NCBI RefSeq assembly: GCF_036345915.1
Contig: NZ_CP107785.1
Coordinates: 7,750,001 to 7,814,000 of the forward strand
Direction: 5' to 3'
Origin: Nocardia sp. NBC_00565
GTDB lineage: Bacteria > Actinomycetota > Actinomycetes > Mycobacteriales > Mycobacteriaceae
Length of the DNA stretch: 64,000 nucleotides
Shown: in pieces, positions 670-21,411 of the stretch
How positions within the stretch are numbered: position 1 is the stretch's first letter
Layout of the letters: each line of letters opens with the position of its first letter
The notes under the pieces: generated by a model
Seen by the model: the letters and a program-made list of their open reading frames with translations, nothing else
The model's database searches: none
Told to the model about the DNA's origin: nothing
Position numbers and translations under genes: made by a program

Positions 670-1200
670 TCAGCGCACCTCAAGCTGGTCAAGCAACCAG
701 GGTCGCTTCGAATCGGTTCGGACAACCCGCGCGTAGATGGAGGTGTGATGGGCTGGGCCATCGCCGAGATGCTGATCGAGCGTGATTACGCGACTGACCG
801 ATCCGCCGGTGTCGGGTGGATGATCGTCCTCGGCGACATGCGCCGTGGTGATTACGCGCGTTGCGCCACGTTGCTCCGACAACGTGCTGGTGATCTGGCC
901 CCCGAGCGCGATGGCCGAGTTTCCGACTCTTTCGCGGTAGTCGTCGGTCAACAGTGGAGAGGCAGCATCGAATGATGTCGCAGGGTCGTACTTTTCGGAC
1001 GATTGGGAAAAGATGCGCGTGACTGCTGCGGTCAGCACTTCCTCGGCCGCGCAGGGGTCGACGTTCGTGTAAGGGTGAGGAAATGGCGGCGCGGTGCACG
1101 TTGCCGCAGGAATCGCCACGTCGTCGCGCGCCGCGCAGCCGGTGACTGCCAGCAGCATGGCCCCGATACCGGTGATCGCAAGCGCGGGTCGGACCTTCAT
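670..1200 (-). CDS. Putative lipoprotein of the transfer operon
   Basis: 176 residues. The N-terminus (basic start, hydrophobic stretch, then A-V-T-G-C with Cys22 as the lipid-attachment residue) fits a type II signal peptide, so the protein probably sits on the outer face of the plasma membrane. The mature part, about 150 residues, has a fold-like mixture ending in beta-type segments; residues around 90-170 resemble the NTF2-like shape of Mce-associated and VirB8-like proteins, but this is only an impression. The ATG at 1200 overlaps the upstream stop codon (ATGA), fixing both the start and membership of the operon. Function is not known. Confidence 0.72.
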   Translation of the reverse strand: MKVRPALAITGIGAMLLAVTGCAARDDVAIPAATCTAPPFPHPYTNVDPCAAEEVLTAAVTRIFSQSSEKYDPATSFDAASPLLTDDYRERVGNSAIALGGQITSTLSEQRGATRVITTAHVAEDDHPPDTGGSVSRVITLDQHLGDGPAHHTSIYARVVRTDSKRPWLLDQLEVR

Positions 1201-1691
1201 GACGCGGTCGGGTAGGCATCGTCGGAGAGCAGTTCGACGGGATCGACGGCGGGTTGGAGATAGCCACCCGAGTTCACCCATTCCGTTGCCGGATTCCAGT
1301 CACTAGTGACGATGAGATCCAGCACCAGTTGGTGGCTGTTCGCCAAGTTGGTCAGCCTCGCGTTATCGAGTGTCCTGCTCACCATCAAGTGGACGGTCGC
1401 TGCGGGGGCGTTGATAGCTTCGCGAGCGCGGGCAGCCAGTCGAATGGCCTTGATCGCTGCCGAGTTGTCGGCGCGCAGTGGATCGCCCTGTGGGTGATCC
1501 GGATCGTCGAAACCAAAGGGACCGAAGGCAATCAGCTGGCCCTCGTCGCCGCAGATCGCCCAAGTGTCATGGTCACTTCCCGCGGACCACAAGGTGATAT
1601 GTGGACCGCTGTCAGCTGCGGATCGGCCATACTTGTCGGTGGCCGACGCCGGGTCGTGTTGTGCCGGGATTCTGTGGCCGGGGATGAACAT
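1197..1691 (-). CDS. Conserved-looking hypothetical protein of the transfer operon
   Basis: 164 residues, with no signal peptide or membrane helix, so a soluble cytosolic protein is likely. The ATG at 1691 has a strong Shine-Dalgarno sequence (AAGGAGGAAG) a few bases upstream; it lies 19 bases after the NlpC/P60 gene and overlaps the next gene by four bases. The sequence includes a short phrase describing an acidic Asp-rich turn (FDDPDHPQ) and an Ala-rich helix around residues 78-95. I do not recognise it. Its place between a wall hydrolase and a lipoprotein suggests a role in assembling or regulating the transfer channel, but that is context only. Confidence 0.65.
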   Translation of the reverse strand: MFIPGHRIPAQHDPASATDKYGRSAADSGPHITLWSAGSDHDTWAICGDEGQLIAFGPFGFDDPDHPQGDPLRADNSAAIKAIRLAARAREAINAPAATVHLMVSRTLDNARLTNLANSHQLVLDLIVTSDWNPATEWVNSGGYLQPAVDPVELLSDDAYPTAS

Positions 1692-1709
1692 ACGTACTTC
1701 CTCCTTGTG

Positions 1710-2801
1710 TTATCCGTATCTGCGGACGTCCATGCGTTCCCCCTGCCAGAGGGGCTCGATCGTGACGGTTTGGCCGAAGGTCGGCGCGTGTAGGAGCAGG
1801 TCACGGCCCTGCTCGTCGGTGCCGTACAAGACACCGACGTGATGGGATTCCGCAGCGCCGGGTTGTGTGAAAAAGATCAGGTCGCCGGGCCGGCGCTGAG
1901 CGAACGGAATGGTTTGGCCCGCAGGGTCGTCCTGCTGTGACTGCGTGTAGTGCGCGAGCCGGATGCGTCCCTGCGATGCGTGGTAGATCGCGTAGAGGGT
2001 CAGACCTGAGCAATCCATTCCGCCGCTGGTGGGGCCGTTGGCATCGCCGCCGCCCCACACGTAAGGCGTTCCGAGCCAGCGCGCGGCGGCCTCGACAACC
2101 GCTTGGCCGAATGGTCCTGTGTTGCCTGGGATTGCAAGTCCCGAGCCGTCTGCACCGCATCCTGCTGGCAGCTGGCCGGGGGCCGTGGCGGGCAGTTGAC
2201 CGACATCGATTCCAGCAAAAGCGTTGTACAGGTCCTGGGCCAGTGGGAGGTCGCGGCTGTACGCAGTGGGATTGCCAGAGATCTCGATGGCCTGCGCGAG
2301 TTCGGCCGGATCCATCGCAGCAGCGCCGCTGATCTTGTCGGCCTGGTCATAGAACCATCCGATCTGATAACTAGGGTCCATCAATGTCGAGATGCCAACC
2401 GCTCCCCACACGCTGGCTCGCATCTGATGTGGTCCGAGGCTATCCAGGTTGGTGCCGGTCCCGTCGTTGGCGAAGCGCAGAGATTCCGGGACGGAAGGAT
2501 TGGCGAGGTTCCTGAGTCCGGATTCGGTGATCTGCGCCGCGAGTTCGGCGACGATCACTGTGCGTGGCTGGCGCCGCTGCACACCGATCACCACACCGTT
2601 GCGAGCGAGCTTGAGCTGTGCCTCGTTGAGCCCGGCGAGAGTGATGCCGGTAGGACCTTCGATTCCGCCGCCCGAAGAAGCGGCCAGAGTGCACGTGGCC
2701 GGATTTTGGGAGCCGACCATGACGAGCATCGACAATGTCGATACGGTGAGAAGCAGAGGGAGGGCGGTAGCGAACGCTACGGTGGTCCGTGAGGTCTCCA
2801 T
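1710..2801 (-). CDS. Bifunctional peptidoglycan hydrolase: lysozyme-like plus NlpC/P60 endopeptidase
   Basis: 363 residues, starting at the ATG at 2801 just after the VirB4-like gene; the frame is open further upstream, but that part overlaps the preceding gene. Residues 10-31 form an N-terminal membrane anchor or uncleaved signal. Residues about 80-170 contain I-T-E-S-G-L-R-N (Glu93 is a likely catalytic acid), a G-P-H-Q-M-R segment and a MDPSYQ...FY segment, the pattern of soluble lytic transglycosylase-like domains. Residues about 230-363 are an NlpC/P60 domain with Cys264 in D-C-S-G, His321 in H-H-V-G-V and a third polar residue at His338. It probably cuts both glycan and peptide to open the wall for the transfer channel, as VirB1- and Orf14-type proteins do in other conjugation systems. 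Confidence 0.9.
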   Translation of the reverse strand: METSRTTVAFATALPLLLTVSTLSMLVMVGSQNPATCTLAASSGGGIEGPTGITLAGLNEAQLKLARNGVVIGVQRRQPRTVIVAELAAQITESGLRNLANPSVPESLRFANDGTGTNLDSLGPHQMRASVWGAVGISTLMDPSYQIGWFYDQADKISGAAAMDPAELAQAIEISGNPTAYSRDLPLAQDLYNAFAGIDVGQLPATAPGQLPAGCGADGSGLAIPGNTGPFGQAVVEAAARWLGTPYVWGGGDANGPTSGGMDCSGLTLYAIYHASQGRIRLAHYTQSQQDDPAGQTIPFAQRRPGDLIFFTQPGAAESHHVGVLYGTDEQGRDLLLHAPTFGQTVTIEPLWQGERMDVRRYG

Positions 2802-2805
2802 GCGA

Positions 2806-4503
2806 TCACCCCGCGTCTTCAGTATCGCGGAGGCCATCAAACCGACGGTTCGTATTGTGGACCTGAGTTGCGCGCTCGGTGGCGGTGAAAACGAGCCTGA
2901 ATGGAATTCCGGGTTGCTGGCCTTCGCCGGTACGGAGTAGGAAACATCCTGTGCCAGGCGGTGTTTCACGTTCGCCCCGACTATCGAGCAGTTCTTCGGT
3001 GGGTTGACGGGGAGCCGCCCACCCGGTGAGTAGTAGTTCCTCGGTTTTGGTCAATGGCACGACCGCGCGAAGTCGTTCCACTTCGTCGGGTGGTATCGGC
3101 CCGAGGATCTTCGCTCTGGATCGCTCGATGAATCCCAGCGCCTTCATGCGGGCTGCTGGACTGTCGAACGCCGACAGATCTTTGATGGTGTGGCTGCACA
3201 TGATCAGCCCTGAGCCCAGCGGCCGGTTGAGCCGAGTGAGCGCGTCGACGCGGTCAACCATGAAATCGCCGAGCCCAAGGACTCGCCAGATCTCGTCGAG
3301 GACGATCTCGAATGTGCGTTTGCGTGCGAGGCCGGCGTCAGCGAGGGTGTGAGCTGCGGTCACGGCGTTGATACCTTCGGACCAGCAGACCATGAGCACG
3401 GCGGCGAGCAATTTGTTGTCCCCATCGGGGATATGGCTGACATCAACGCAGACCGCGGGCGCATCGAGGTTGAGTTCGGTCGTGGTATGGCCGTCGAGCG
3501 CTTCTCCGAATGGGCCTTCGATCAGCGCTCTCAACGAACGCCGAAGAGTGCGGGTGGAGTCTCGGTAGGCGTACCCGACGTCCTCCTCCGAGGAGCGAAG
3601 CATGTTCTCGCCGCCGTCGGAGATCACGCCGAGCAGATCACGCAGGAGCGGCGGCCGAGACATCGTGTAGTCACCGTCGCTGTAGAGCTGTCGTAGACCC
3701 GCCGCGATCAGGGTCTCTTCCCAATCCGCGATCCGGTCGCCCCGCGCGAGTTCAATCAGAGCAGCAACGATGGTGACCTGACCTGCTTCGACGCGGGCAA
3801 TGACCTGCCGCCGCAGATCAGAGTCGGGTAGGCGGTCGACCACGGCACCGAGTGCGCCGACGGCCAAGGGATTCAGCTTGCCTCGCCCGTATCCGAGTTC
3901 GACGATCTGGCCGCCGAGATGCTCGACCAGGTCGCGGTATTCACCTTTGGTGTCACCGAGCGCGAGCACGGTCTCTCCGGCAGCGACTGCGCCGGTCATT
4001 ATCCGGCGGATGAGTGAGGACTTGCCGAAACCGTTGAGGGCCAGCACGAAAAGCGTGGGAGCAGTGAGAAAGCCGCGTAAGAACCAGGCCATGGGATCGA
4101 AGTGCACCGGGCTGCCGGTGACGAAGTGCGGCCCGAGCGGGGTGCCGACTACTGGCGCGGAAGCGCCGACCGAGAATGGCCAGAGTCCAGCTGTTTGGGT
4201 TGTGGTGCCACGCCACTCTGGTGTCGCGGGAACGACCGAGGACCGCCCGCCTCCGGCTCCGCGATAGCCACGGTCGGTCAGAGTTGCCAACGGGCGGTCG
4301 AAGCCATCGCGGCGGCTGTCTTCGGCGCGGCGGGTCGCGGTGGCGAGGCGGTGGTTGTCGCTGGACAACAGGTATCGCGCCCACCAGGCACTAAGACCGC
4401 CGTGCGCCACGACATTCTCGACGCGCGCACGCTCGTCCCGCGTCATTACTCGAATCCCGGCCACCTGTGTGGTGCGGGCTGGATGGGCGGCGCGGCGGGT
4501 CAT
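2806..4503 (-). CDS. VirB4-like T4SS ATPase (ATP-binding half)
   Basis: 565 residues. A P-loop lies at residues 155-162 and a Walker B aspartate-glutamate pair at 403-404 (EIVLDEIW), both typical of the VirB4/TraC/HerA group that powers T4SS assembly and substrate movement at the membrane. The first P-loop glycine is replaced by Ala155 (A-L-N-G-F-G-K-S), a mild deviation. The protein lacks the usual VirB4 N-terminal domain; the upstream SCO6880-type gene probably supplies it, so VirB4 function appears split over two genes. The start overlaps the upstream stop by four bases. VirD4-type coupling proteins share this fold, but the position next to the SCO6880 homologue favours VirB4. Confidence 0.85.
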   Translation of the reverse strand: MTRRAAHPARTTQVAGIRVMTRDERARVENVVAHGGLSAWWARYLLSSDNHRLATATRRAEDSRRDGFDRPLATLTDRGYRGAGGGRSSVVPATPEWRGTTTQTAGLWPFSVGASAPVVGTPLGPHFVTGSPVHFDPMAWFLRGFLTAPTLFVLALNGFGKSSLIRRIMTGAVAAGETVLALGDTKGEYRDLVEHLGGQIVELGYGRGKLNPLAVGALGAVVDRLPDSDLRRQVIARVEAGQVTIVAALIELARGDRIADWEETLIAAGLRQLYSDGDYTMSRPPLLRDLLGVISDGGENMLRSSEEDVGYAYRDSTRTLRRSLRALIEGPFGEALDGHTTTELNLDAPAVCVDVSHIPDGDNKLLAAVLMVCWSEGINAVTAAHTLADAGLARKRTFEIVLDEIWRVLGLGDFMVDRVDALTRLNRPLGSGLIMCSHTIKDLSAFDSPAARMKALGFIERSRAKILGPIPPDEVERLRAVVPLTKTEELLLTGWAAPRQPTEELLDSRGERETPPGTGCFLLRTGEGQQPGIPFRLVFTATERATQVHNTNRRFDGLRDTEDAG

Positions 4504-5969
4504 GACGCCGACACGCGCTTCGAGATGCTGGCATGTTCAGGCAGGATCACACCGACGCCGAGGCTCGCGGCAAATGCCGAGGCTTGGAAGGCGTAGCAGC
4601 GGCGCACGTTGAGCCGAGATGCCGCCGACATGGTCTGTACAGATGCTTCGATGCCGGGGAGATCAGCGCCCAGATGGTCGGTGACGGTGACGAGTACGCC
4701 GAAGCGAGTCAAACCAGCACCGCGGGCTTGTTCCTGACGGCTGGCCTGCGTGTTGCCTACCCGAAGTGAGGCGGATGCCGAGGCTATTCCTTGTTGGGTC
4801 TGCTCGGCGGCGAGAGCATCCTTGAAATCGGAATCGACGATCGAGGTCGATTCGGCAGGAGAGTGCAGTCGATACACGACGGCGACTCGTTTGCGGGGAA
4901 CATCCGGGCGCGGCTCGAGCAGTGGCTTGAGTGCCGTTTCGTGGACCGCCCCCAGCGGAGCGGCGTCCATCTCCCAGGTCACCGACCGGGCACCATCGTG
5001 AACGAAATGGTCCCATCGGTCGTCATGACTGATCGGCCCGGCACTATCCCAGGATTGGGTGCCCAGTACATCCTCGCCCGCTGCTTCGACATCACGTTGA
5101 GCAGCAAGGTCGTAACGGGTCCGAACCAGGCCGAATACCTCCCACGCCCGCATTGGGGTAGCGGGCAGCCCGGCACGGGCCAATTGGCTGAGTGCTCCTT
5201 GCAGCCGCAGCCCGATTTCTTTCGCCTGTTCAGCCTGGTCGCGACGCATCCGCCCAATCGACCGGTACGTCAGCGCGATCCGAGCTTCGATACGCACTCC
5301 GCTTCCACCGGTATCGGCGGCAGCTTCGGCCATGACGGCGCGCGCGTAATCAGGGGTGCCGCGCCGAATCAGCCGTGCAACCTCACGCCGTTGCCGGAGC
5401 CGAGTATCGACGACGGATTCCAGAACCGAGGTCACCGCGACGACATCGCCGCTGCGCCCTTGTGCAGCCAGGAACGTCCCGTATTCTTCGACCCAGGCGT
5501 CGATTCGGTCTTGATCGACCAGTTCCTGCGCCGACGGAATGACGCGCAACACCACCGTCCAGTGGTTGGTTCGACGCACATGGATCAGCCCGAACCTCCG
5601 CCCACCCGGTGCTTCGAACTCCATCAGCTTCGAGTCGGCCAGCAAGCCAGGCAACCGCGCGGAACCGGGAATTCGGCTGAACCGCCCTGCACGGTAAAGG
5701 GTTTCGTTACGTCGTCGTGCAAGTGCGTACTGTGTTCGCAGCGTGACGATCTCCCAGCCGGTCCGTCCTGCGCGCTGCACGACCAACGGTGTCCACACAA
5801 TGGCAGCGACGGCCAGCAGCACCGCAGCCACGGTGATCGATTGGGTGATCAAGAAACCGATCATGATCATGACGACCAGACCGAGTCCTGCCATGGACAC
5901 ACCCCAGGTCAGACCCATCAGCCCGGCGGATCGGGGCCGCTCCCAACGTCCGTACATTCGCGTTGTCAT
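4500..5969 (-). CDS. SCO6880-family T4SS membrane protein
   Basis: 489 residues from the ATG at 5969, preceded by GGAGGTC at good spacing; the ATGA overlap with the upstream gene agrees. Two membrane helices at about residues 20-40 and 44-64 are followed by a large soluble domain with no P-loop. This is the architecture of the SCO6880 family in actinobacterial conjugative elements: an inner-membrane component resembling VirB3 plus the N-terminal part of VirB4. It is translated directly ahead of the ATPase gene and probably forms a complex with it at the inner membrane. The family name is from memory of its sequence pattern and neighbourhood; confidence in the T4SS role is high. Confidence 0.83.
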   Translation of the reverse strand: MTTRMYGRWERPRSAGLMGLTWGVSMAGLGLVVMIMIGFLITQSITVAAVLLAVAAIVWTPLVVQRAGRTGWEIVTLRTQYALARRRNETLYRAGRFSRIPGSARLPGLLADSKLMEFEAPGGRRFGLIHVRRTNHWTVVLRVIPSAQELVDQDRIDAWVEEYGTFLAAQGRSGDVVAVTSVLESVVDTRLRQRREVARLIRRGTPDYARAVMAEAAADTGGSGVRIEARIALTYRSIGRMRRDQAEQAKEIGLRLQGALSQLARAGLPATPMRAWEVFGLVRTRYDLAAQRDVEAAGEDVLGTQSWDSAGPISHDDRWDHFVHDGARSVTWEMDAAPLGAVHETALKPLLEPRPDVPRKRVAVVYRLHSPAESTSIVDSDFKDALAAEQTQQGIASASASLRVGNTQASRQEQARGAGLTRFGVLVTVTDHLGADLPGIEASVQTMSAASRLNVRRCYAFQASAFAASLGVGVILPEHASISKRVSAS

Positions 5970-7414
5970 CGACGGACCTCCATGGGGCCGGGTTCGTCGG
6001 GGCCTATCTCGTTGGCGACTTGATCGCGTACTTGATTGGCTGCACTCGCTCCGGCTTGGACTCCGGCGTTGGCGGCTGCCACCCACGGCCCACCAGCGGC
6101 ACCGCCCGCTGCCGAGCCAGCCGTTGAGGTCCCCGGCGTCGCACTGCCAGTGGGAACAGCTGGAGTCGGCTGTTGGCTACCGCTGCGACCACCTCCCCCG
6201 CCGTTAGTTGTTGAGGCCGTGGTGGATTCACTACCTGTCATCACCCGACCGCCACCACTGCCGTGCCCGGATCCGCTCTGCCCTGACGAAGAGTTCGATG
6301 AACCGCCGCTATGGACGGATTCAGTGACACCACGTGCGCCGGAAGCCGATCCCGCCGCCGACGCGGCACCGGAGGCAGCGAGGCCGCCCGCCGCGCCCAA
6401 TGCCATAGCGGCACCGGCCCCGCCGCCGCCGCCCATCGTGGCGACCGCAGGCGCGACCATGCGCATGATCGCGGGCAATACCAGCGCCACCAGGGCAAGC
6501 AGGATCAGCCCAAGCAGTGCCATTTGAGGGTCGTCGCCGGGAGTGCCGGCGGCGGCGAAGGCCACGACGTAAACGAGCGCACCTACGGGTTTGAACAGCA
6601 CGAAGGCGATCGACCACGTCAGCAAGCGTTTGTAGGCACCCGAACCCGGTCCTGTGCCCGCCGCTGAGGCGGCAACCGGCAGTAACGCGACGACCACGAT
6701 CAGCAGTGCTTGTCGGATCACCAGCAGAATGACCTGGACCAGCGCTCCGATGAATCCGATCGTGCCGAGGATGAACATCGCTCCGAGCCCCAGTCCCCCG
6801 TCGCTGTCGACGAGGGAGTCGAAACTGACCATGTTGTGCAGGACGTTCACCGCGTCGTTGTGCGTGATATCGAGGAGGACCCAGGTCGAGAAGCTGTCTC
6901 CTGCCCTGGTTCCCGCGGTGATGACGGCGGCGAACATCCAGCTGCCGAACACAGCGCGGGCGAAGGTCAGGAAGGACTCCTGAGTTTCGGCCGCCAACCC
7001 GACCTGCCCAGGCAGACCGCCCCGCTTGGCCATCATCAATCTGGCGGCCGTGAGGAGCACCGCACCAGTCATCAGCAGCACTTGAAGTCCGGTCGTGTAC
7101 TCGCGCACCGTGGCCAGGACGGGCGAGACTTGGCCCGATCCCGATCCGAGCACTGGAGAGGGCAGGGCGACCCACCACGACAAGGCCCATTCCAGCTGTC
7201 GGCCGAACCCCTGGAGCATCGAGTTGACGATGGCTTCGAAACTGCCCTGTGCCGCGTCCTTCACTGCGTCGCCGCCCACCTTGCACGCCAGGTCGGCGCC
7301 AGGGATATAGCACGGGAGGGGCTTGGCTGAGGCGCTGCCGGTGCCCAGGATCATCGATTCGGCCACCACAATGCCGGTGAATGGCACCGTGAGCAGAATG
7401 CGTCGGCCGATCAT
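5966..7414 (-). CDS. VirB6/TrbL-like polytopic transfer protein
   Basis: 482 residues when started at the ATG at 7414 (ATGA overlap with the upstream gene, GGGG seven bases ahead); an ATG at 7420 is possible. Residues 1-30 look like a signal sequence ending near A-S-A. The middle holds about six hydrophobic helices, and the C-terminal 150 residues are a low-complexity Gly/Ser/Ala/Thr tail. Many helices plus a long disordered tail is the VirB6/TrbL pattern: the inner-membrane channel protein of a T4SS. It is co-translated with SCO6880- and VirB8-like partners. The tail sequence itself carries no recognisable motif. Confidence 0.82.
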   Translation of the reverse strand: MIGRRILLTVPFTGIVVAESMILGTGSASAKPLPCYIPGADLACKVGGDAVKDAAQGSFEAIVNSMLQGFGRQLEWALSWWVALPSPVLGSGSGQVSPVLATVREYTTGLQVLLMTGAVLLTAARLMMAKRGGLPGQVGLAAETQESFLTFARAVFGSWMFAAVITAGTRAGDSFSTWVLLDITHNDAVNVLHNMVSFDSLVDSDGGLGLGAMFILGTIGFIGALVQVILLVIRQALLIVVVALLPVAASAAGTGPGSGAYKRLLTWSIAFVLFKPVGALVYVVAFAAAGTPGDDPQMALLGLILLALVALVLPAIMRMVAPAVATMGGGGGAGAAMALGAAGGLAASGAASAAGSASGARGVTESVHSGGSSNSSSGQSGSGHGSGGGRVMTGSESTTASTTNGGGGGRSGSQQPTPAVPTGSATPGTSTAGSAAGGAAGGPWVAAANAGVQAGASAANQVRDQVANEIGPDEPGPMEVRR

Positions 7415-8232
7415 CGCCATACCCCGAAGTCGGCCAGCGAGGTGACCAACGTGGACGCCGCCCACAGGGCTCCCACGTCCTCTGGGGCACGGATACGCCA
7501 GTCGCCGTCGACCCAGACCATCGGCCAGGAGGAGAATCCCGACTTGCCTTGCGGGGTACGGACTCCCAGCTGCACGACAGCGAAATCGTCGCGGTAGCCG
7601 ACGACTTTGATTCCTGCTGGGACGACGACGTATTTCGCGGCGTCGGGGTTGTCGCGGCGGCTGCTGGCGTATCGCTCGAGCAACGCTGCCTGGTCTCCGA
7701 CAAATCGTGCTGCCACTACCCGCTGCCAGACCCCATCGGGGGCTGCCAGCGCGCGAGCCATCGCGTCGGCGGCGGCCAGGCCAGCACCCTGCGGTGTATG
7801 TGCGAATCCGGATGCGATGCCGCCATCGATACGCGCTGGGCCATCGCTGCGGGATGCGGGCAACGCTGCGCCGTTCCACCCCCGCTGCCACATCATGCCC
7901 GCCGGTGCGGCGATGAACCACGCGGCACCGAGACCGGGGTCCGGGCCAGCTGAGTCCTGGGGCAACGCCGCACCAGCCGGGTCGGTGGGCGTTTCGAGCC
8001 GGACACCGAACAGGTCTGTCGTCGGCAGCCCGAAGGCAGGCGATCTGGGCGGATTCGCCACCGCCGTCGACGATGGGTTCGGCGGAACACTCGGCACCAC
8101 AGTGGTTTTCGTGCCGGACTGCGATTCGTTGTTGTACAGCAGGGCGAGCACGGCGACGACGACGAGCGCCAAGAGCGAAGCTGTGAGGGTCAGCCCGGGT
8201 CGGAGTCCGAATGAGGTCTTGCGGCTACTCAT
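7411..8232 (-). CDS. Single-pass membrane protein, VirB8-like by context
   Basis: 273 residues: a short basic cytosolic tail, one membrane helix at about residues 16-34, a Pro/Ser-rich linker, then an exported domain. The exported part shares a pattern with the neighbouring lipoprotein gene (G-[FY]-x-H-[ST]-P-x-G near the middle, W-x-R-V-V, and a final D-W-x-[IV/L] strand), so the two are paralogues. Size, topology and position just before the VirB6-like gene match VirB8/TcpC scaffold proteins of T4SSs. The assignment is inferred from layout; the residues do not identify the fold with certainty. It overlaps genes on both sides by four bases. Confidence 0.75.
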   Translation of the reverse strand: MSSRKTSFGLRPGLTLTASLLALVVVAVLALLYNNESQSGTKTTVVPSVPPNPSSTAVANPPRSPAFGLPTTDLFGVRLETPTDPAGAALPQDSAGPDPGLGAAWFIAAPAGMMWQRGWNGAALPASRSDGPARIDGGIASGFAHTPQGAGLAAADAMARALAAPDGVWQRVVAARFVGDQAALLERYASSRRDNPDAAKYVVVPAGIKVVGYRDDFAVVQLGVRTPQGKSGFSSWPMVWVDGDWRIRAPEDVGALWAASTLVTSLADFGVWR

Positions 8233-8879
8233 AGCGGTAGCCAGACCATGTCAGTGGGTGTCGCGGGTACCGCTGTCACCGGTGAGGAGTCGGGGTTCTC
8301 GGGCAGCACCAGGAGCCAGTCAGTGTCGTGCCAGGCCACCGTGGCGGTATTGCGGGTCAGTGAGTTATCGGGCTGGCGGGTGAAGATGGCGACGTCTGCG
8401 GAATCTGGGGTGTAGGCCAGCAGGCTGTAACCGAGGATCTGGGGTGCGCGATCGGATGTGACCGGTTCGGTGATGGACAGTTGGATGCGTGCTGTGGCCC
8501 AGTGATCACGGCCGACTCCGGGTTGGACCATCCGGCCGACGACGCGCGACCACTGGGTGTCGTCGGCATTGGAGATTCGCACGGTGGCTTGGATGGCCGC
8601 GACCGCCGAACCGCGGGGCGAGTGTTCGTATCCGGCAGCAACTGGTCCTTCCTCGATGGTCGGCCCCTGCTGAGTTCGAGGGATCGGAATGCCTTGGAAC
8701 TGTTGCCATGTCAGCCCGGTCGGTGCGGCACCAAGTTCGGCGCGGGTCGGCGATGGGCCGGTGGAGATCACCGTCGGGCCGTCGGTGCCACATCCACTGA
8801 TCAGACCGGCGAGAGTCAGCAGACCTGTAACGCCCAGCAGGATGAGGATGGCGAGGGCTGGTTTGCCACTCGGGTACAT
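8229..8879 (-). CDS. Putative lipoprotein, paralogue of the VirB8-like neighbour
   Basis: 216 residues from the ATG at 8879, preceded by AAAGG. The N-terminus is a type II signal with lipobox L-I-S-G-C, Cys30 being the lipidated residue. The exported domain has the same landmarks as the next gene product (G-Y-E-H-S-P-R-G, then Q-W-S-R-V-V and a C-terminal W-H-D-T-D-W-L-L), which suggests an old duplication in which one copy became lipid-anchored and the other kept a membrane helix. It is likely a periplasmic structural part of the transfer channel. No enzymatic motif is visible. Confidence 0.75.
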   Translation of the reverse strand: MYPSGKPALAILILLGVTGLLTLAGLISGCGTDGPTVISTGPSPTRAELGAAPTGLTWQQFQGIPIPRTQQGPTIEEGPVAAGYEHSPRGSAVAAIQATVRISNADDTQWSRVVGRMVQPGVGRDHWATARIQLSITEPVTSDRAPQILGYSLLAYTPDSADVAIFTRQPDNSLTRNTATVAWHDTDWLLVLPENPDSSPVTAVPATPTDMVWLPL

Positions 8880-8931
8880 CGGGTGCCTTTCGTGAACGAG
8901 CATGGGTGAGCAAGTGGGGTCGGCGACTGCA

Positions 8932-9168
8932 TCAGGGGGGTTGCAAGACGGCTTGGGCGATCAGCCCTGCCGATCCAAGGACGGCACCGCCCACCAGCGC
9001 GGCGATCAGCCCTTCGATTGCCTCGTCGCGGTAGACGCGAATTGCTAAAAGCGCTCCCGCCCAGATGATTCGGGTGATTCCGACCAGGATCGCCAGCCAG
9101 GCGACCCAGCCGAACAGCTGGATCAGCGGAGCGGTGACGGTGGGTGGCAGTTGCTTGGCGGCGATCAA
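8932..9168 (-). CDS. Small two-helix membrane protein of the transfer operon
   Basis: 78 residues, starting with TTG at 9168 that overlaps the upstream stop codon (TTGA), which argues for this unusual start. Two hydrophobic helices flank a short positively charged loop, and the C-terminus is Gly/Ala-rich and hydrophobic. Size and topology resemble pilin-like VirB2/TrbC proteins or the small PrgI-like subunits of Gram-positive T4SSs. It follows a second two-helix protein of similar size, and the two share W-[AV]-[SA]-W and G-[AG]-x-x-G patterns, so they may be related. There is no known name. Confidence 0.68.
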   Translation of the reverse strand: MIAAKQLPPTVTAPLIQLFGWVAWLAILVGITRIIWAGALLAIRVYRDEAIEGLIAALVGGAVLGSAGLIAQAVLQPP

Positions 9169-9443
9169 GAGCTCACGCCGTTCATCAACAGCCCGGAGAT
9201 GGTCACGAAGACGCCACCGATGAGAGCCCCGGCGATGATCTTCGGCGACTCCATGGCACCGCCGTGCATCTTCTCCCAGGCGAATTTGCCGCCGCCGTAG
9301 ATGATTCCGAGGACACCGGCGATCATCGCGAACCAGCTGGCCCAGCCGATGAGTTTGAGGAAGCGTTCGGAGCCTGGAGGTGCTATTGGGGTCACGGAGA
9401 CTTCGGCGAGGTGTGTCACCGCTGAAAGGGCCACGGTCAGCAT
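9165..9443 (-). CDS. Small two-helix membrane protein, pilin-like (VirB2/TrbC type) candidate
   Basis: 92 residues with an AAGGAG ribosome site ahead of the ATG at 9443. After an amphipathic N-terminus there are two membrane helices, at about residues 33-52 and 68-88, joined by a short loop; the second ends in the small-residue-rich stretch typical of VirB2-like subunits (A-L-I-G-G-V-F-V). It overlaps the upstream gene by seven bases and the downstream small membrane gene by three or four. A role as the major subunit of the transfer channel or pilus is an inference from size, topology and position. Confidence 0.72.
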   Translation of the reverse strand: MLTVALSAVTHLAEVSVTPIAPPGSERFLKLIGWASWFAMIAGVLGIIYGGGKFAWEKMHGGAMESPKIIAGALIGGVFVTISGLLMNGVSS

Positions 9444-10102
9444 GGGGACTCCTTGGTGCTGGTGTCGGACAGATGTCGCGACGCCGCGATGAGCCGGGTG
9501 ATCGCAGCACCTGCGGCAATCACGTCGGCGGGGACCGATTCAGTGATGCGGCGACGGCGACGGCGACGCGGAACCGGTTGGCCCGGTGTCCATTCGGCGA
9601 GGTCAACCAGTTCGCAAGCGATGAGTTCGTCGTGCCAGTCGATGTTGAACACGTGCTCGTCGATGAGGTTGGCGACAAGATCTCGGTATCGGCGGACCTC
9701 GGCCGGTACTCGACCGGGGCGGGGCGGCGTCAGCACGAGCGCCACAACGGTCACGCCAGCAGGCGCGTGCTCGGCGCGCCATTCCCGCAATCTGTCGGCA
9801 GCGGCGACGAGGCCGGGCATGCACAGCCGCGCAGCGAGAACAACACGCTGAGTAGTAACCGTTGATGCGGGCCAGCACTGTCCGCTGTCGGCCGCGGGTG
9901 CCCAGAACCGTGCAAGTGTCGAGGTAGCGGCACCACCATGTGCGCCGACTATCGCAACGAGCGGTGGGTACGCGCCCGTGGTCGGTAGCGGTTGGCTACG
10001 GATGGGGGACGGAATGAGTGGGGATGCATAAACGAAGTCGGCCAGCGACGACGGCGCAGGCGCGCGGTCGGGTTGCAAAGGGAGCGCGTTGGTCACCGTC
10101 AC
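9437..10102 (-). CDS. Degenerate MinD/ParA-type P-loop protein
   Basis: 221 residues starting at GTG 10102, which overlaps the upstream stop (GTGA). Residues 46-63 read L-V-A-I-V-G-A-H-G-G-A-A-T-S-T-L, the position and look of the deviant Walker A motif of MinD/ParA ATPases (K-G-G-x-G-K-T), but both lysines are missing. A later hydrophobic strand followed by L-T-P-P-R-P fits the family core. It is therefore probably a MinD-like fold that no longer hydrolyses ATP, or does so poorly. A basic run of arginines lies at about residues 176-182. It may spatially organise the channel; this is inference. Confidence 0.66.
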   Translation of the reverse strand: MTVTNALPLQPDRAPAPSSLADFVYASPLIPSPIRSQPLPTTGAYPPLVAIVGAHGGAATSTLARFWAPAADSGQCWPASTVTTQRVVLAARLCMPGLVAAADRLREWRAEHAPAGVTVVALVLTPPRPGRVPAEVRRYRDLVANLIDEHVFNIDWHDELIACELVDLAEWTPGQPVPRRRRRRRITESVPADVIAAGAAITRLIAASRHLSDTSTKESPC

Positions 10103-10845
10103 CCTCGTTTCTGGATGTTGGTGATGTGTGTGCCGTCGTGGAAGCGAACGTTGATCAGTTGCAAGTAGTCGAAACGATCGCGGTCGGGCCGCAATTCGAC
10201 GATGTGTACCTCTGCGGCGGTATCGCTCAGCGGAGTAATCGCAACGCAATGGCGGGTGCCGACGGGAAGGCTGGCGATTCCTGCGGTGAGTCCGTCGAGG
10301 GTGAGGCCCGCCTCGGGCGTGGTGAGAGACAATGCACGAGCTGGGTCACGGTCGGCGTAGTAGGCAAATTCGAAACTGGCGACGATCCCCCCGATCGAGG
10401 TGTCATCTCCATGGCGATCGGTGACGACGACGCCGGTCAAACCCATGCACGCCGGGCTGTCGTGAACCGTTGACACCCCGGCAGTTGTGGAGGTGATGGT
10501 CGTCGTTGCAGTTTGGTCGAGGTCGGGTCGCGACCTGACCGCCACAGCCCCGACGACGACTGCTACCACGGCGGCCGAGATGGATACCCACCCCAGGACG
10601 CTGCTGCTTGATCTGGGTGCCTTCGCTGTTACCAGGGCAGTGGTCTTGGTGTCCTCGTCGTCGGTGCGTTCACCATCGGCGGCCGATAGCTGTTGCTCGC
10701 CGAGCCATCCCCATTCTCGGGCGGTGTCCGGGTCCACAGCAGAGGTGAATGCGTCGAAAGACAGCGACTGGGCTTGGGCAGGGCGAGCGCCGGGATGGCC
10801 GTCGATCCATCCCCATTCTTCACGGGACTTATTGTCTTGCAACAC
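10099..10845 (-). CDS. Single-pass membrane protein with repeated WGW motif
   Basis: 248 residues, starting at GTG 10845 behind AGGAGGT. A cytosolic N-terminal region of about 80 residues contains two copies of an R-E-x(0-1)-W-G-W motif (near residues 8-13 and 43-47) and then an acidic stretch. A membrane helix at 84-104 follows, then a Thr-rich linker and a compact exported domain of about 120 residues. The exported domain may have an NTF2-like shape, as in several T4SS scaffold proteins. The repeated WGW motif suggests a docking element for a cytosolic partner, perhaps the MinD-like protein encoded next. The family is not recognised. Confidence 0.72.
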   Translation of the reverse strand: MLQDNKSREEWGWIDGHPGARPAQAQSLSFDAFTSAVDPDTAREWGWLGEQQLSAADGERTDDEDTKTTALVTAKAPRSSSSVLGWVSISAAVVAVVVGAVAVRSRPDLDQTATTTITSTTAGVSTVHDSPACMGLTGVVVTDRHGDDTSIGGIVASFEFAYYADRDPARALSLTTPEAGLTLDGLTAGIASLPVGTRHCVAITPLSDTAAEVHIVELRPDRDRFDYLQLINVRFHDGTHITNIQKRG

Positions 10846-10859
10846 ACTTCACCTCCTCG

Positions 10860-12428
10860 TCAGTTGGCAGGGAGTTCCTCCGGGGGAGCCACACGATCTG
10901 GTGAGGGGGTGTGCGGCTCCCCCGAAGGAAGGGGCGCGGAAGTACTGACTCCCGCGGGCCTCGGTGTCACCGACGAGTGCGGTGGACGCTGGACAGGACT
11001 GTCGGCCAGTGCCGCGAACCAGTGCGCGGCCACCGTCATCAGCGACTGCTGGCCGTTGCTGGAGGCGCCGTAGTCGGCGCGCCGACCGATGACATCGGCG
11101 GCTTGGGTCAGAAGCCCGATGTCGACCAGGTCGGCGTTGTCGGTGATGTTGTCGCGAACGGCGTCGAATGCTTGCTGCACCAACCGCGTTCCGGTGGCAG
11201 GCGGGATCAGTTCGACGGCGGCAGCAGCAAGCTTCGTACCAAGAGTTGTCAACGCCGCGACTGGGTTGACCAGGCCGACGCCGATCAGTTCGGCAACGGT
11301 GGCTGGGGTGATGACCTTCTCGGCGACAGTGACGACGCTGTTGAAGGCAATGGTTCCCAGCTTCATAAGCGCCTGGATCGCGTCGTTCGGACCGGGGATC
11401 TGAGTGCGCGGGTCCGAGGCTTCGGCAAGTCGTTGCGAAATGCTCTTCTCGGGCGCATAGGAGATCTGGTCCAGGCTGGTGCCTTGAACGTCGTCGTTGA
11501 CGACGTTGACCGCCGTGGTGTAAATCGTTTGCGCCATCGCGGTCGCGATCGTCGATATCGCCGCAATGGGGTCGTGGAGGTCTGCGCGTGCCGCCACGTT
11601 CGATACGACTTGCAGCAGCGCGGCGTGGTCGGGAGCGTTGCAGGCGAGATCACCGGGCGCGCAAAGGTCTGCGACGCGGCCGGTGAGTGTTCCGTAGCTG
11701 GCCGAACCGGTCGCATGGTTACCGAGCGCCGCGGCGATTCCGCCTCCGTCGAGGCGGGTGTTGGGCAAGGTGATCGCCGAGACAGCGGAGTCGGGCAGGC
11801 TCGGTGGTGCCGACGGTGTGGTCTGCCCAGGGCGGCCCGGCAGCACCTCGGAATCTCGCTGTCGCGCAGGATTGGCGATCAACGCGATACCCGCAATGCG
11901 ATCGGCCGGGATGGCTGTGGCGCCGGTGCCGACTCGTCGGCTGAACTCTGAAAGCGCTTGCGCCCCTTGGGCATATCCGGCCCCGCCGAGCTGTGTGTCC
12001 GGGCACTTCTGAAGAACATGGGTCGCGGACTCGACCAATCTGTCCGCCGCCGCGCTGATGGCTCGGGTGTATCCGTCGCCTGCAGCGCTCGAAGAACCGG
12101 TCGCAGCTGAGGCGTCTAGTTCGACGTAGGCGCGTTGAACCTTCGTGCCCGTTTCGGCAAGCAGTGGCCGAAGCATCGTTCCGAGCATTCCGGTGTCGGT
12201 GGTGGACGTAGCGTCGGGCGAGGTTTCTTCGGCGGGCTGGATGCCGAGCACATACAGTGCCGGGCATTCAGCCCCGGTTGGTGGCTCCGATGTGGGCTGC
12301 GACCATGCCGCGCCGGTCATGACGATCAACGCGGCGACGGTAGTGGCGCTTGCTGCCAGCACCCGCACCGGCGCCCGGTGCGCACCACGCTGCGCACACC
12401 GAACCCGGGCCCACTGGAACCGACTCAT
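10860..12428 (-). CDS. Cutinase-family protein lacking catalytic Ser and His (pseudoenzyme)
   Basis: 522 residues with a signal sequence (about residues 22-43) and a cutinase-like alpha/beta-hydrolase domain. The nucleophile elbow reads G-Y-A-Q-G with Ala153 where Ser is required, and the position aligned with the catalytic His of the neighbouring paralogue is Arg450; the catalytic Asp260 in G-D-L-A-C remains. Cutinase cysteines (Cys55, Cys142, Cys256, Cys263) are kept, so the fold is probably intact. Like its neighbour it has a long insert between the Asp and His regions, plus a Pro-rich C-terminal tail. It is co-translated with the active copy (ATGA overlap) and may bind lipid or mycolate without cutting it, or partner the active enzyme. 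Confidence 0.85.
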   Translation of the reverse strand: MSRFQWARVRCAQRGAHRAPVRVLAASATTVAALIVMTGAAWSQPTSEPPTGAECPALYVLGIQPAEETSPDATSTTDTGMLGTMLRPLLAETGTKVQRAYVELDASAATGSSSAAGDGYTRAISAAADRLVESATHVLQKCPDTQLGGAGYAQGAQALSEFSRRVGTGATAIPADRIAGIALIANPARQRDSEVLPGRPGQTTPSAPPSLPDSAVSAITLPNTRLDGGGIAAALGNHATGSASYGTLTGRVADLCAPGDLACNAPDHAALLQVVSNVAARADLHDPIAAISTIATAMAQTIYTTAVNVVNDDVQGTSLDQISYAPEKSISQRLAEASDPRTQIPGPNDAIQALMKLGTIAFNSVVTVAEKVITPATVAELIGVGLVNPVAALTTLGTKLAAAAVELIPPATGTRLVQQAFDAVRDNITDNADLVDIGLLTQAADVIGRRADYGASSNGQQSLMTVAAHWFAALADSPVQRPPHSSVTPRPAGVSTSAPLPSGEPHTPSPDRVAPPEELPAN

Positions 12429-13681
12429 CGGCCAGCTCCTCCCGCGAGATCACGCGACAGAGCCGAGAACCAGTCGGCAGCGTTGGCAGTCTGGCCATCG
12501 GTGCCGTACCCGGTGTGATTGCCGGGCACATCGAGGTAGCGCCCCAGGACTGCGGGGTTGGCCAGATCGCTGTTGTCGGCGATGTTCTGCCCGATCGCTG
12601 CGACGAGTTGCCCGGCTAGACGCGGGATCTGTCCCAGCGGATCAGCAAGGATCGCCGAAACGACGCGGTCGGCCTTGTCGTTGGCAGCATGCGTCTCCTC
12701 CGGTGTCGGTGCCGCGGAGCGGGGGTCGGCAGCTTCGGCCAAGCGCTGAGAGACCGACCGGGACGGGGCGTAGGTGACCTGGCCGTCGACGACGCTGACA
12801 TCGTTCACCAGGACGGAGGTCCTGGTGTCGGCCACAGTGTCCGACCAGGCATTCGAAAGAGACTGTGCGGCAGCGATCGGATCGCGCAGGTCTGCTTGAG
12901 CGGCGAGACCGGCGGCGGTCCGCAGGGCTGCGTCGTTGGCGGGAGCGTCACAGCTCAGATCGCCCGCAATGCAGAATTCTGCGACGCGACCGGACAAGTC
13001 GCCATAGCCTGATCCGCTGGCAGCGATGCCACCGGTCGGAGGTACGGGGTTGATCCGTACCTGGGTGGTCAGTTCCCCGTCCGATCCTGGCGGCGGGTTG
13101 GGCGTCAACTGGCCGGGCCGCCCGGGGAACGGATCGGTGCCCGGTGCACGAGAGGGATTGCTGAGCAAGGCGATCCCAGCCACCCGGTCAGCCGGTACGG
13201 GCCCGTTTCCGGAGCCGACATCGGCGGCGAAACTGGAAAGCACTTCCGCGCCTTGACTGAATCCGGCGGCGGCCAGCTGCGTGTCAGGGCATTGCGCGAT
13301 GACCTGGGTGGCCATCGCGTTCAGCTGTGCGCGGGCCGCTTGAACGGAATCGCCGTAGGAGTCGGTACCTGCGCCGGTGCCGATCACGCCGCCGAAAGAG
13401 GCTGGGTAAGGCACGTAGGCGTGTCCGATACTCACCCCGTTCGCCAGCATCGGCCGGAACATCTCGCCGAGCATCCCGGTATTGTCGAAAAGCGATGCTC
13501 CGGGCGAAGATTCGCTTGTCCCCTGAATACCCAGCACGTAGAGGCCAGGGCAGCTGGAACCAGGGACCTGCGCGGTGTCGTCGGCGATGGCTGTTGCGGT
13601 GCCCGCCAGCATCGCTGCTGCGGTGCATGCCGTCACGCTCCAGGCAGCACGGTGCCGCTGGCGAGCTCGGTGCTTGCTCAT
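12425..13681 (-). CDS. Cutinase-family serine esterase, likely active
   Basis: 418 residues: a signal peptide (about 1-34) and a cutinase fold with nucleophile elbow G-F-S-Q-G (Ser142), catalytic Asp241 in G-D-L-S-C, His389 in N-H-T-G-Y-G, and disulfide-type cysteines 44/131 and 237/244. The His lies about 150 residues after the Asp, far more than in fungal cutinases, because of a helical insert shared with the next gene. Mycobacterial members of the family cut acyl, phospholipid or mycolyl esters. Its place in a conjugation operon suggests local opening of the mycolate outer layer. The substrate is not visible from sequence. Confidence 0.87.
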   Translation of the reverse strand: MSKHRARQRHRAAWSVTACTAAAMLAGTATAIADDTAQVPGSSCPGLYVLGIQGTSESSPGASLFDNTGMLGEMFRPMLANGVSIGHAYVPYPASFGGVIGTGAGTDSYGDSVQAARAQLNAMATQVIAQCPDTQLAAAGFSQGAEVLSSFAADVGSGNGPVPADRVAGIALLSNPSRAPGTDPFPGRPGQLTPNPPPGSDGELTTQVRINPVPPTGGIAASGSGYGDLSGRVAEFCIAGDLSCDAPANDAALRTAAGLAAQADLRDPIAAAQSLSNAWSDTVADTRTSVLVNDVSVVDGQVTYAPSRSVSQRLAEAADPRSAAPTPEETHAANDKADRVVSAILADPLGQIPRLAGQLVAAIGQNIADNSDLANPAVLGRYLDVPGNHTGYGTDGQTANAADWFSALSRDLAGGAGR

Positions 13682-14655
13682 TCCCCCACCCCCACAGCTG
13701 CGCCGACGCTGGCGCCGACCGTCCCGCCAGCAATGGCTGCGGGGATTCCACCCAGGGCTCCGGTGATAGCCCCGCCGATCACGGCACCGATCACGGCACC
13801 GACTGCGGTAGCGGTGCCGATAGTCCCGCCGAAGACGATGGGAGTGGCGGCAGCAGCAGCCAGGATGCCTGGAATAGCACCGATTCCTGCGGTGGCTACA
13901 GCACCTGCGACGGCCAACGCACCCTCGACGCCAATAGACCCCACGACTCCAACTGCGGCACCGATCGCGGCACCGGCCGCGGCACCTACTGCCGCGCCAG
14001 GGACGGCGGCGACGGCAGCCGCAGGAACTCCGGCGGAGACGGCACCGATCCCGGCTCCTGCGGTGGCCGCCGCCGCGACGCGGTCACTGCGCTCCGGGGG
14101 TACCCCGATGCTGTCCCAGAGCTGTGCTGCTCCGGCTTCGAAACCTGCTGCAGCGGTGTTGATTCCGTCTCTCACCTCCGGAGGGAGCCAGTCTGGGCTG
14201 GGGGTGCTCCAGTCGCCGATCCTGATCGTGTTGGGCGGCGGTTCGATCGGCGCGACCGGCGGAGTCGGTTCGGGTAGGTGGAGGTCCTCCCAGACGATCG
14301 GCGGAGCTGGCTCCGACGGAGGGACCGGGCGGGAGGAGGCATCGTTGCGTACCGCGGGCGAGGTGTGCTCGGGTTCGGGTTGGGGTTCAGATGCCGTTGG
14401 AGGTGGGGACGGCGCGGTCGTTCCCGGCTGCGCCGGGCTGGTCACCCCCGGCTGGTCGGCGATATCACCGACGGCTGCGCCGGCCGGGATCACCAAGGCC
14501 AACGTGACCATCAGAGGAACAGCGGCAACGAACAGGCCCCGCTGGATTCGACGCTTGGCCTGCCCTTGAGGAGGCCAATGATGTGAGGAGGACTGGGAGG
14601 CGCTCTCGACATGCGGAGAAACGCATAGCGAGGTCCGGTTTTCCGATGAAGGCAT
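13678..14655 (-). CDS. Gly/Ala-rich (glycine-zipper) exported protein
   Basis: 325 residues from the ATG at 14655, which has GGAA upstream; a TTG at 14691 is a weaker alternative. An N-terminal hydrophobic segment (about 43-62 of the chosen product) is followed by about 100 residues rich in Pro, Glu and Ser. The C-terminal 140 residues are made almost wholly of Gly, Ala, Val and Ile in G-x3-G-like spacing. Such glycine zippers pack helices in membranes and form pores or oligomers. It is the first large gene of the transfer operon and overlaps the cutinase gene by four bases. It could be a structural component that inserts into the mycolate layer, but this is inference. Confidence 0.74.
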   Translation of the reverse strand: MPSSENRTSLCVSPHVESASQSSSHHWPPQGQAKRRIQRGLFVAAVPLMVTLALVIPAGAAVGDIADQPGVTSPAQPGTTAPSPPPTASEPQPEPEHTSPAVRNDASSRPVPPSEPAPPIVWEDLHLPEPTPPVAPIEPPPNTIRIGDWSTPSPDWLPPEVRDGINTAAAGFEAGAAQLWDSIGVPPERSDRVAAAATAGAGIGAVSAGVPAAAVAAVPGAAVGAAAGAAIGAAVGVVGSIGVEGALAVAGAVATAGIGAIPGILAAAAATPIVFGGTIGTATAVGAVIGAVIGGAITGALGGIPAAIAGGTVGASVGAAVGVGE

Positions 14656-14718
14656 GCGCGTTCCACTTTCTGCGCTGAGAATTATCGACAAAGTCGAAAG
14701 AGTTTCTAGATAGGAAAT

Positions 14719-14751: not shown

Positions 14752-14759
14752 CGAAGTCC

Positions 14760-14867
14760 CTACAGGAAGCTGAATACGATATTCAGCACATTCACCAGAG
14801 CCGATGTCGCATTGACAGCGATCGAACTGCCGGTGTTGAGAAAGTTGAGGATGATGGCGGGGTCCAC
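14760..14867 (-). CDS. 35-residue hydrophobic peptide at the head of the transfer operon
   Basis: GTG at 14867 follows the strong ribosome site AAGGAGAAT and opens a 35-residue frame ending at TAG 14762. The peptide has one acidic residue near the start and then only hydrophobic and small polar residues, including a D-P-A-I-I-L-N-F-L start and a V-N-V-L-N-I-V-F-S-F-L end. It could form one amphipathic or membrane helix. Its size and composition recall short pore-forming peptides such as corynebacterial PorA/PorH, or a leader peptide controlling the hairpin downstream. An ATG at 14897 is in frame but has a poorer ribosome site. Confidence 0.5.
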   Translation of the reverse strand: MDPAIILNFLNTGSSIAVNATSALVNVLNIVFSFL

Positions 14868-19345: not shown

Positions 19346-20029
19346 CTACGGGCTGACCGGCGGTGACGAGACCACGGGGGTGACCCCGGTGAGCTTCGCG
19401 CCCAGTTCAGGCACACACCGCTCGATCAGGGGCACCAACGTGTCGATGCGCGCCAGGCCCAGGTATGCGACAACCGACGGTAGGGACGCCCCGGCGGACA
19501 GCAGCCATTCGGCACAGCTCCAGCGCACGTCCTGCGGGCGCGGCCGTTTGCCGTGCAGTGGGTCGCTGGATTCGTCGTGGCCGTCGAGCAGATCCGCGAG
19601 TGCTCGTCTCCACACCTGGGCATAGCGATGGCCGAGGACCGCACCGCCCGAGCGGGTCGTGAACAGCAGCTCGTCACCGGGCCGGTCCAGGTCAAGGCTA
19701 TCGATCAGCGCCTCGGGCACGCGGATCACCCTGCGGCCGTACTTGTTCGGCCGGATCTTCCATCCGTCGCGTGTCGGCATCCAGGTCTTGGAGATCTCGC
19801 AACCAGCGGTGTCGGGATCGACATCACACACGAACACCGCAGCAGTCTCGTTGAGACGTGCTGCACCCAGGGCAAGGAAGTCGGCGTGCCGATGCCAGAA
19901 CGCGGGCAAAGCATCGCGTACTACGGTGAACTCGTCGGTGCTCAGCAGGACCGGCGACTTCTTGACTTTCCAGTACGGGGTGCGCCGCGACAACCGGGCT
20001 TCGGCGTGCTGCCGAATTGACGCGTTCAT
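19346..20029 (-). CDS. Degenerate tyrosine-recombinase paralogue
   Basis: 227 residues starting inside the stop of the integrase gene (ATGA at 20029). It aligns along the C-terminal half of that integrase (for example D-x-x-D-x-[TA]-G followed by K-[AT]-W, L-D-L-[ND]-R-P, H/N-G-K-R-P) but lacks the N-terminal arm-binding domain. The two catalytic arginines are kept (Arg58, Arg169), while the catalytic His is Leu192 and the nucleophilic Tyr is Ile202, so it should not cut DNA. It may bind att sites with the active integrase, or modulate it. It could also be decaying, but the intact frame and coupling argue for function. Confidence 0.75.
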   Translation of the reverse strand: MNASIRQHAEARLSRRTPYWKVKKSPVLLSTDEFTVVRDALPAFWHRHADFLALGAARLNETAAVFVCDVDPDTAGCEISKTWMPTRDGWKIRPNKYGRRVIRVPEALIDSLDLDRPGDELLFTTRSGGAVLGHRYAQVWRRALADLLDGHDESSDPLHGKRPRPQDVRWSCAEWLLSAGASLPSVVAYLGLARIDTLVPLIERCVPELGAKLTGVTPVVSSPPVSP

Positions 20030-21314: not shown

Positions 21315-21328
21315 AGCCGCAACGTGTG

Positions 21329-21411
21329 TGGGCGAAGGGGGACTTGAACCCCCACGTCCCGAAGGACACTGGCACCTGAAGCCAGCGCGTCTGCCATTCC
21401 GCCACTCGCCC
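21329..21411 (-). tRNA. tRNA-Leu (anticodon CAG), ICE attachment gene
   Basis: The minus strand folds into a class II tRNA: acceptor GGGCGAG pairs with TTCGCCC, the anticodon stem CTGGC/GCCAG encloses a loop with CAG, a long variable arm follows, and the T-arm GGGGG-TTCAAGT-CCCCC is canonical. Discriminator is A and CCA is not encoded. It lies next to fhaA as in mycobacteria. The ICE begins at its 3' end and restores an intact tRNA. Confidence 0.95.

Follow-up and report, generated by a model that had tools for sequence, protein, structure and literature searches.

How type IV secretion systems (T4SSs) cross the mycolic-acid layer is, to our knowledge, an open question. Among described systems the closest are plasmids of Rhodococcus: PMC6794481 names a cutinase and a murein endopeptidase as possible aids to the passage of the pRErm46 machinery through the envelope and, citing Francis 2012, states that a cutinase promotes conjugation of pFiD188. 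The general idea that a cutinase serves conjugation is thus not new, being already published for Rhodococcus plasmids. Here we analyse a 64,000-nucleotide stretch of Nocardia sp. NBC_00565 (bases 7,750,001-7,814,000 of the 9.71 Mb single contig C1, NZ_CP107785.1; "the window"), which holds a leftward T4SS operon, with all genes on the same strand (about 670-14867), in an integrative conjugative element (ICE). It shares with pRErm46 and pFiD188, as these are presented in that source, a T4SS with a VirB4-like ATPase, a peptidoglycan hydrolase and a secreted cutinase; unlike them, it forms part of a chromosomal ICE, carries tandem copies of the cutinase, one apparently active and one dead, and has the genes for a 35-residue peptide and a glycine-zipper protein in front. 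Record KY494640 (R. equi, 87,665 bases), which we read as pRErm46 from host and length, contains a cutinase gene whose product shares 39.7% identity with the Nocardia single-copy form. A T4SS-type ICE of a mycolate bacterium has likewise been described in Mycolicibacterium, ICEMyc226, but it measures 388 kb and encodes two type VII secretion systems, and the word cutinase is absent from the main text of that paper (PMC7478629).

What could such a gene set do? We put at a little under 60% the probability that the peptide, the glycine-zipper protein (gz), Cut1 and Cut2 form a surface module of the ICE, in which Cut1, as an active esterase, and partners without catalytic activity breach the mycolate layer, or attach to it, in the course of mating. 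The T4SS operon would thus begin with this module, the 35-residue peptide being amphipathic. The NlpC/P60 protein would open the peptidoglycan, Cut1 would hydrolyse an ester-linked envelope lipid (mycolyl or other acyl ester) at the mating contact, Cut2 would hold, target or restrain Cut1 or grip a mycolate-type lipid for the T4SS, and the glycine-zipper protein and the peptide would insert into the mycomembrane. That mycolyl esters are what Cut1 cuts, and that transfer needs Cut1, we infer. As judged from the sequences, three things appear to be new: the active/dead cutinase pair in a T4SS operon, joined in relatives by a LIP-type hydrolase with seemingly lost serine; a gene for a leaderless amphipathic 35-residue peptide heading such an operon; and a related, core chromosomal T4SS locus between hisS and relA. 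Literature searches, which did not use those exact words and covered few subscription journals, met no title on a dead cutinase partner, the peptide or the hisS-relA locus. The set of peptide, glycine-zipper protein, active cutinase and dead hydrolases is defined, conserved and compact, and its genes can be removed one at a time; the Nocardia chromosome also holds a syntenic T4SS relative.

The cutinase pair and its relatives

A sequence-only reading of the window had placed T4SS-like genes, two cutinase-family proteins, an NlpC/P60 hydrolase and a glycine-zipper gene in one leftward operon, and open reading frames (ORFs), Pfam and NCBIfam bear out that observation. Both proteins of the pair do match Pfam Cutinase, and these matches, like that to NlpC/P60, exceed the curated cut-offs; however, Cut2 has other residues in place of the catalytic Ser and His, which makes it a predicted pseudoenzyme and leaves a single apparent enzyme in the pair. 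Two working cutinases are thereby ruled out. In the sequence alignment the Cut1 triad lies in the motifs GFSQG (Ser), GDLSC (Asp) and GNHTGYG (His), and Cut2 has Ala, Asp and Arg at these positions. The full triad is present in 119 of the 120 listed Cut1 homologues (158 in total), the remaining one being gapped at Ser. Of 199 Cut2 homologues in total, 120 were listed; Ser is replaced in 112 of these (residues in that column: A 59, G 36, T 16, S 8, R 1), while Asp is kept in 120/120, His in 106/120 and the motif C..[GV]D..C in 117/120. The 48 named loci (47 Nocardia, 1 Solirubrobacteraceae; a few identical to each other or to other loci counted) repeat the pattern: Cut2 is visible in 38, with Ser lost in 36 and kept in two (L151, L166), and in the other 10 the fetched stretch stops short of the cut2 place.

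Single-copy cutinases of other T4SS loci keep the Ser, with one exception. This protein (L126:5014-6873), the sole T4SS cutinase-like protein of its locus in a 2.9 Mb genome of the host's family, Mycobacteriaceae, shows Ala in place of the Ser, aligns a Gln with the His and sits on a long branch. In a quick tree, several rows of which are on long branches, Ser-bearing single-copy rows fall outside both the Cut1 and the Cut2 clades (support for the Cut2 group branch 89%); therefore the simplest history would be duplication of one active long cutinase, with catalysis retained in Cut1 and lost in Cut2. Selection was gauged by a simple counting method on hand-chosen sequence groups: the median dN/dS of Cut2 is 0.25 (range 0.14-0.40, 43 pairs), indicating purifying selection, next to medians of 0.11 for VirB4, 0.07 for SCO6880, 0.19 for NlpC/P60 (28 pairs) and 0.37 for lp224. 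Constraint on Cut2 is thus weaker than on VirB4 and SCO6880, near that on NlpC/P60 and stronger than that on lp224. By these sequence measures Cut2 is a pseudoenzyme whose fold is kept under purifying selection, and Cut1 apparently a working cutinase.

Closest to both in solved fold and in sequence is Rv3802c/Culp6 (5w95; M. smegmatis MSMEG_6394, 3aja), whose NCBIfam model matches Cut1 and Cut2 below its cut-off. Unlike Rv3802c, Cut1 carries 147 residues, mostly helix in the structure model, between Asp and His, both genes belong to a mobile T4SS operon, and Cut2 is without Ser and His. The helical insert has no separate match in the VIA listings and offers no evidence of a new fold. Lysin B of mycobacteriophage D29 (3hc7) ranks below Rv3802c and is a phage lysis protein, not a T4SS gene product.

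Relatives add a LIP-family (PF03583) gene between cut1 and cut2; the window has none at that place. Of the LIP ORFs, 40/41 have Ala or Gly at the Ser position of the WGYSxG motif and one (L135) keeps Ser; this is judged from the motif and not from alignment with a LIP known to be active, and several of the 41 ORFs represent one locus taken from two sources. In L234, L235 and L242 the first LIP shows no such motif. The catalytic serine of these hydrolases thus seems to be lost, and their median dN/dS is 0.20. Among 20 second-tier loci found through the peptide, seven lack cut2 and combine cut1 with one or two LIP genes.

An arrangement of this kind could also serve the donor side only, with Cut1 thinning the donor's own mycomembrane for a T4SS surface structure and Cut2 acting as an inhibitor or immunity-like partner that spares the donor. 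We regard this as the less probable course, at perhaps one chance in four, although active and dead paralogues do occur together in the ICE clade, with cut1 and cut2 overlapping by 4 bases in the window, and a peptidoglycan hydrolase is encoded within the same operon. Against it, relatives add the LIP protein, a second apparently dead hydrolase from another family, single-cutinase systems function without a dead copy, and 7 of the 25 peptide-bearing clade loci with cut1 have no cut2. A further thought is that Cut2, together with LIP in relatives, works independently of Cut1 as a mating receptor or surface-exclusion protein that binds lipid or the partner cell. Replacement of the nucleophile by A, G, T or R, with the Asp and the cysteine motif preserved, would suit such a role, as would the fast yet constrained evolution of Cut2; but these point to a receptor only indirectly, and cut1 stands in the same operon in all 18 cut2-bearing loci examined, which makes us doubtful of this alternative.

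The peptide at the operon head

The sequence-only reading ended the operon at position 14655, which is the ATG of the glycine-zipper gene, and its list lacked the head gene at 14760-14867, which ends 104 bases ahead of that ATG. In the window, L049, L050 and L052 the glycine-zipper gene is preceded by a 35-codon gene that starts with GTG and has a ribosome-binding site; in L051 this gene lies upstream of cut1. A profile of the peptide matches 78 of 150 same-genus genomes at E<=0.01, the weakest matches being probably chance. In a sample of the family it matches 6 of 251 genomes at E<=0.001, and these six all belong to the genus. Of the 30 best loci, 29 adjoin a glycine-zipper gene and/or cut1, the remaining one (L222, a 2.1-kb stretch) having neither; all 20 second-tier loci fetched have the peptide ahead of cut1. 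Overall, 49 of 50 examined matches lie beside the module, or 44/45 when the window and the four seed loci are excluded. In sequence terms the 35-codon gene is coding; its pN/pS is 0.22 over 119 close pairs. The length is exactly 35 residues in 50 of 55 rows as called (five of the 55 are repeats), and the other five hold the 35-residue form within a longer call.

As read from the sequence, the peptide would form a helix and has no leader. It is amphipathic, with 34 of 39 unique peptides exceeding at least 495 of 500 shuffles, and a polar stripe (N11, S15, S18, N19, S22, Q26, S29) runs along one helix face. Four peptides searched gave no Pfam match and one unrelated weak NCBIfam match at E<=10, and a BLASTN search against plasmids with the sequence upstream of the operon gave none. 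A micro-peptide feature filter passed 25/25 clade loci versus 0/42 other cutinase operons, searched up to 3.5 kb upstream (0.5 to 3.4 kb in 7 of the 42); its thresholds were chosen knowing the peptide, the 25 loci had been selected because they hold it and serve as a positive control rather than as an independent count, and two of these loci passed a further small ORF.

Among known proteins the likeness is to the mini-porins of Corynebacterium, PorACj (40 aa) and PorACur (37 aa), which form cell-wall channels and share with the peptide very small size and an amphipathic helix, with no precursor seen for PorACur (PMC3792995, PMC5944148). The likeness is one of size and amphipathicity; the peptide has no Pfam or NCBIfam family match and comes from another genus and gene context. 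A bolder proposal, which we hold only tentatively and think unlikely as a whole, is that the peptide is a mini-porin-like mycomembrane insert that, with gz, the active cutinase and pseudo-hydrolases as docking proteins, would make up the first outer-layer part of a mycolate-specific conjugation machine, a counterpart of the outer-membrane T4SS core of Gram-negative bacteria.

Module loci whose fetched stretch shows no T4SS query match are L234-L237, L242, L249 and L250, the same seven second-tier loci that lack cut2; in four of them, those with ORFs listed (L234, L236, L249, L250), a long ORF after p248 looks by eye like a MinD/ParA-type ATPase.

Hosts and the mycolate layer

VirB4 matches were found in 107 of 301 family genomes and 92 of 296 genomes of the class. 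From these, 59 family and 20 outside-family loci were fetched, hand-picked mostly among the higher-scoring and far from all listed; loci that extend 15 kb or more upstream from the end of VirB4 count as long enough, and the mycolate status of hosts is assumed from taxonomy, not gene by gene. A profile search detects a cutinase in 43 of the 49 family loci that are long enough and in 2 of 10 shorter ones, versus none beside VirB4 outside the family (0/18 long-enough loci, 0/20 in all). A tblastn search of plasmids with the single-copy Nocardia cutinase gave 152 records, many of them near-copies (e.g. R. equi plasmids) and only a minority checked for T4SS genes; 151 come from mycolate genera (Rhodococcus, Prescottella, Gordonia, Nocardia, Dietzia, Corynebacterium, Hoyosella) and one from Cryobacterium. 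VirB4 itself matches 475 plasmid records, including Streptomyces 95, Arthrobacter 54, Paenarthrobacter 21, Clavibacter 21 and Curtobacterium 15.

These counts also bear on the idea that the hydrolases are hitch-hiking cargo for lipid or polyester nutrition or for host interaction. Cutinase-fold enzymes act on many esters, and the genome holds 10 cutinase-domain places, and five of the six other ones that were checked have no T4SS query match nearby. However, a cutinase lies upstream of the T4SS genes in the 43 family loci and on plasmids, 62 of the 152 plasmid records are typed conjugative, and nucleophile loss in Cut2 and LIP speaks against nutrition; we therefore find cargo quite improbable, the least probable of the alternatives.

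What weighs against the proposed role of Cut1 and its partners at the mycolate layer? As to the proteins, Ser is present in the eight listed Cut2 homologues already counted, two Ser-bearing rows (N. suismassiliense) are nested in the dead clade of the quick tree, where Ser was apparently regained, the lp224 value makes a dN/dS of 0.25 not unusual among the operon's accessory genes, and Rv3802c is, by common description, not a mycolyl-ester hydrolase. As to the loci, 7 of the 20 second-tier ones carry the surface module although none of the T4SS queries matches within the stretch that was fetched, the T4SS stands without a cutinase in six long-enough family loci (L061, L063, L064, L065, L086, L113), and L112 and L113 are near-identical in VirB4, yet differ in cutinase presence; the cutinase is therefore not indispensable. 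As to the hosts, T4SS phylogeny and host class are confounded, the VirB4 tree separating the same hosts, and a whole cutinase-T4SS system is found on the Cryobacterium plasmid. The VirB4 of this plasmid is nearly identical to that of L125, a family locus, and therefore the plasmid looks like a recent host jump.

That a cutinase occurs wherever this T4SS occurs is ruled out, since it is absent from 20/20 non-family and 6/49 long-enough family loci. The 20 outside-family rows form one group in the VirB4 tree (99% SH-aLRT), which implies few independent events, and mycolate specificity is therefore not taken as proven. The association between cutinase and host thus appears strong, yet largely reflects one lineage. 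The proposal in the sequence-only reading of an apparatus specific to mycolic-acid bacteria accordingly survives in its contrast of family with other loci and in its plasmid hosts, but is tempered by that single lineage, the six exceptions and Cryobacterium.

The element, its gene order and a chromosomal relative

Most adjacent operon genes overlap or lie at most 30 bases apart, and the order is repeated in relatives; with one strand, tight spacing and conserved order, the grouping is not due to chance. p270 matches DUF6668 below the cut-off, and on plasmid L202 a DUF6668 protein is annotated after the cutinase.

Table 1. Features of the window. VirB6-like, membrane and export labels are predictions from sequence, N-termini and place.
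Feature	Position	Strand	Basis or remark
35-residue leaderless amphipathic peptide gene, operon head	14760..14867	-	GTG start, ribosome-binding site; no Pfam/NCBIfam match
Glycine-zipper protein (gz)	13678..14655	-	no Pfam match; N-terminus looks exported
Cut1, cutinase with Ser-Asp-His and mostly helical insert before His	12425..13681	-	Pfam Cutinase E 1.6e-14
Cut2, predicted cutinase-fold pseudoenzyme (Ala at Ser, Arg at His position)	10860..12428	-	Pfam Cutinase E 2.3e-8
p248, membrane-anchored	10099..10845	-	sequence reading
p270	9437..10096	-	DUF6668 below cut-off
Small membrane protein, presumably in pilin-like place	9165..9443	-	translation
Small membrane protein	8932..9168	-	
lp224, lipoprotein-like	8229..8903	-	sequence reading
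tm273, membrane-anchored	7411..8232	-	sequence reading
Polytopic VirB6-like protein	5966..7414	-	sequence and place; no family match
SCO6880 family T4SS protein	4500..5969	-	NCBIfam NF042935, 463 bits, E 1.1e-138
VirB4-like ATPase	2806..4503	-	no Pfam match; partial NCBIfam matches (E 3.2e-13) below cut-offs; relative in 475 plasmid records
NlpC/P60 peptidoglycan hydrolase, N-terminal membrane segment	1710..2801	-	Pfam E 1.3e-14
p164, small protein	1197..1691	-	
lp203, lipoprotein-like	670..1281	-	sequence reading
Tyrosine integrase of the element	20026..21219	-	Pfam matches below cut-off; adjoins tRNA-Leu
23-bp att repeat, 3' end of tRNA-Leu (tRNA 21328-21411)	21327..21349	.	exact repeat

A second exact copy of the 23-bp att repeat lies within C1:7682715-7682763, inside a longer imperfect repeat, and the two copies bound an element of about 88.6 kb. 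It encodes a TraG/VirD4 coupling protein (L010:5817-7661) and a TrwC relaxase (C1:7716207-7717484, 262 bits), the sole TrwC match genome-wide at E<=1; a whole-genome search found no PF03432 relaxase. The conjugative element that had been read from the letters is confirmed by relaxase, coupling protein, VirB4-like ATPase, integrase and att repeat, and we therefore file it as a T4SS-type ICE of the Nocardia chromosome, its excision and transfer being predicted from gene content.

A second VirB4-type T4SS locus of this genome is found between hisS and relA (C1, about 4.12-4.14 Mb; L048, L013), where a TraG coupling protein and an M23-SLT-NlpC hydrolase are encoded too; neither a TrwC nor a PF03432 relaxase was found at this locus. 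A VirB4 relative at 53-55% identity is present in this genome and in 28/28 same-genus genomes among those listed, and the listed portion of the genomes without a match includes none of the genus. The interval from hisS to relA holds T4SS genes in all nine genomes that were compared, of which one belongs to another genus; relA is reversed in G164, and the block beyond hisS is inverted in four of the nine; a cutinase is present at the locus in 5/9.

The ICE also carries other genes. A stretch at L200:6578-18074 (C1:7686578-7698074) holds defence cargo, with Gabija-like GajA/GajB neighbours and a type IIG/ISP restriction-modification protein of 1619 residues, and an alanyl-tRNA synthetase gene (890 residues, L009:9716-12388) lies within the att-defined element. 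The ORF at 19346-20230 (-), adjoining the integrase, resembles by eye the catalytic half of another integrase.

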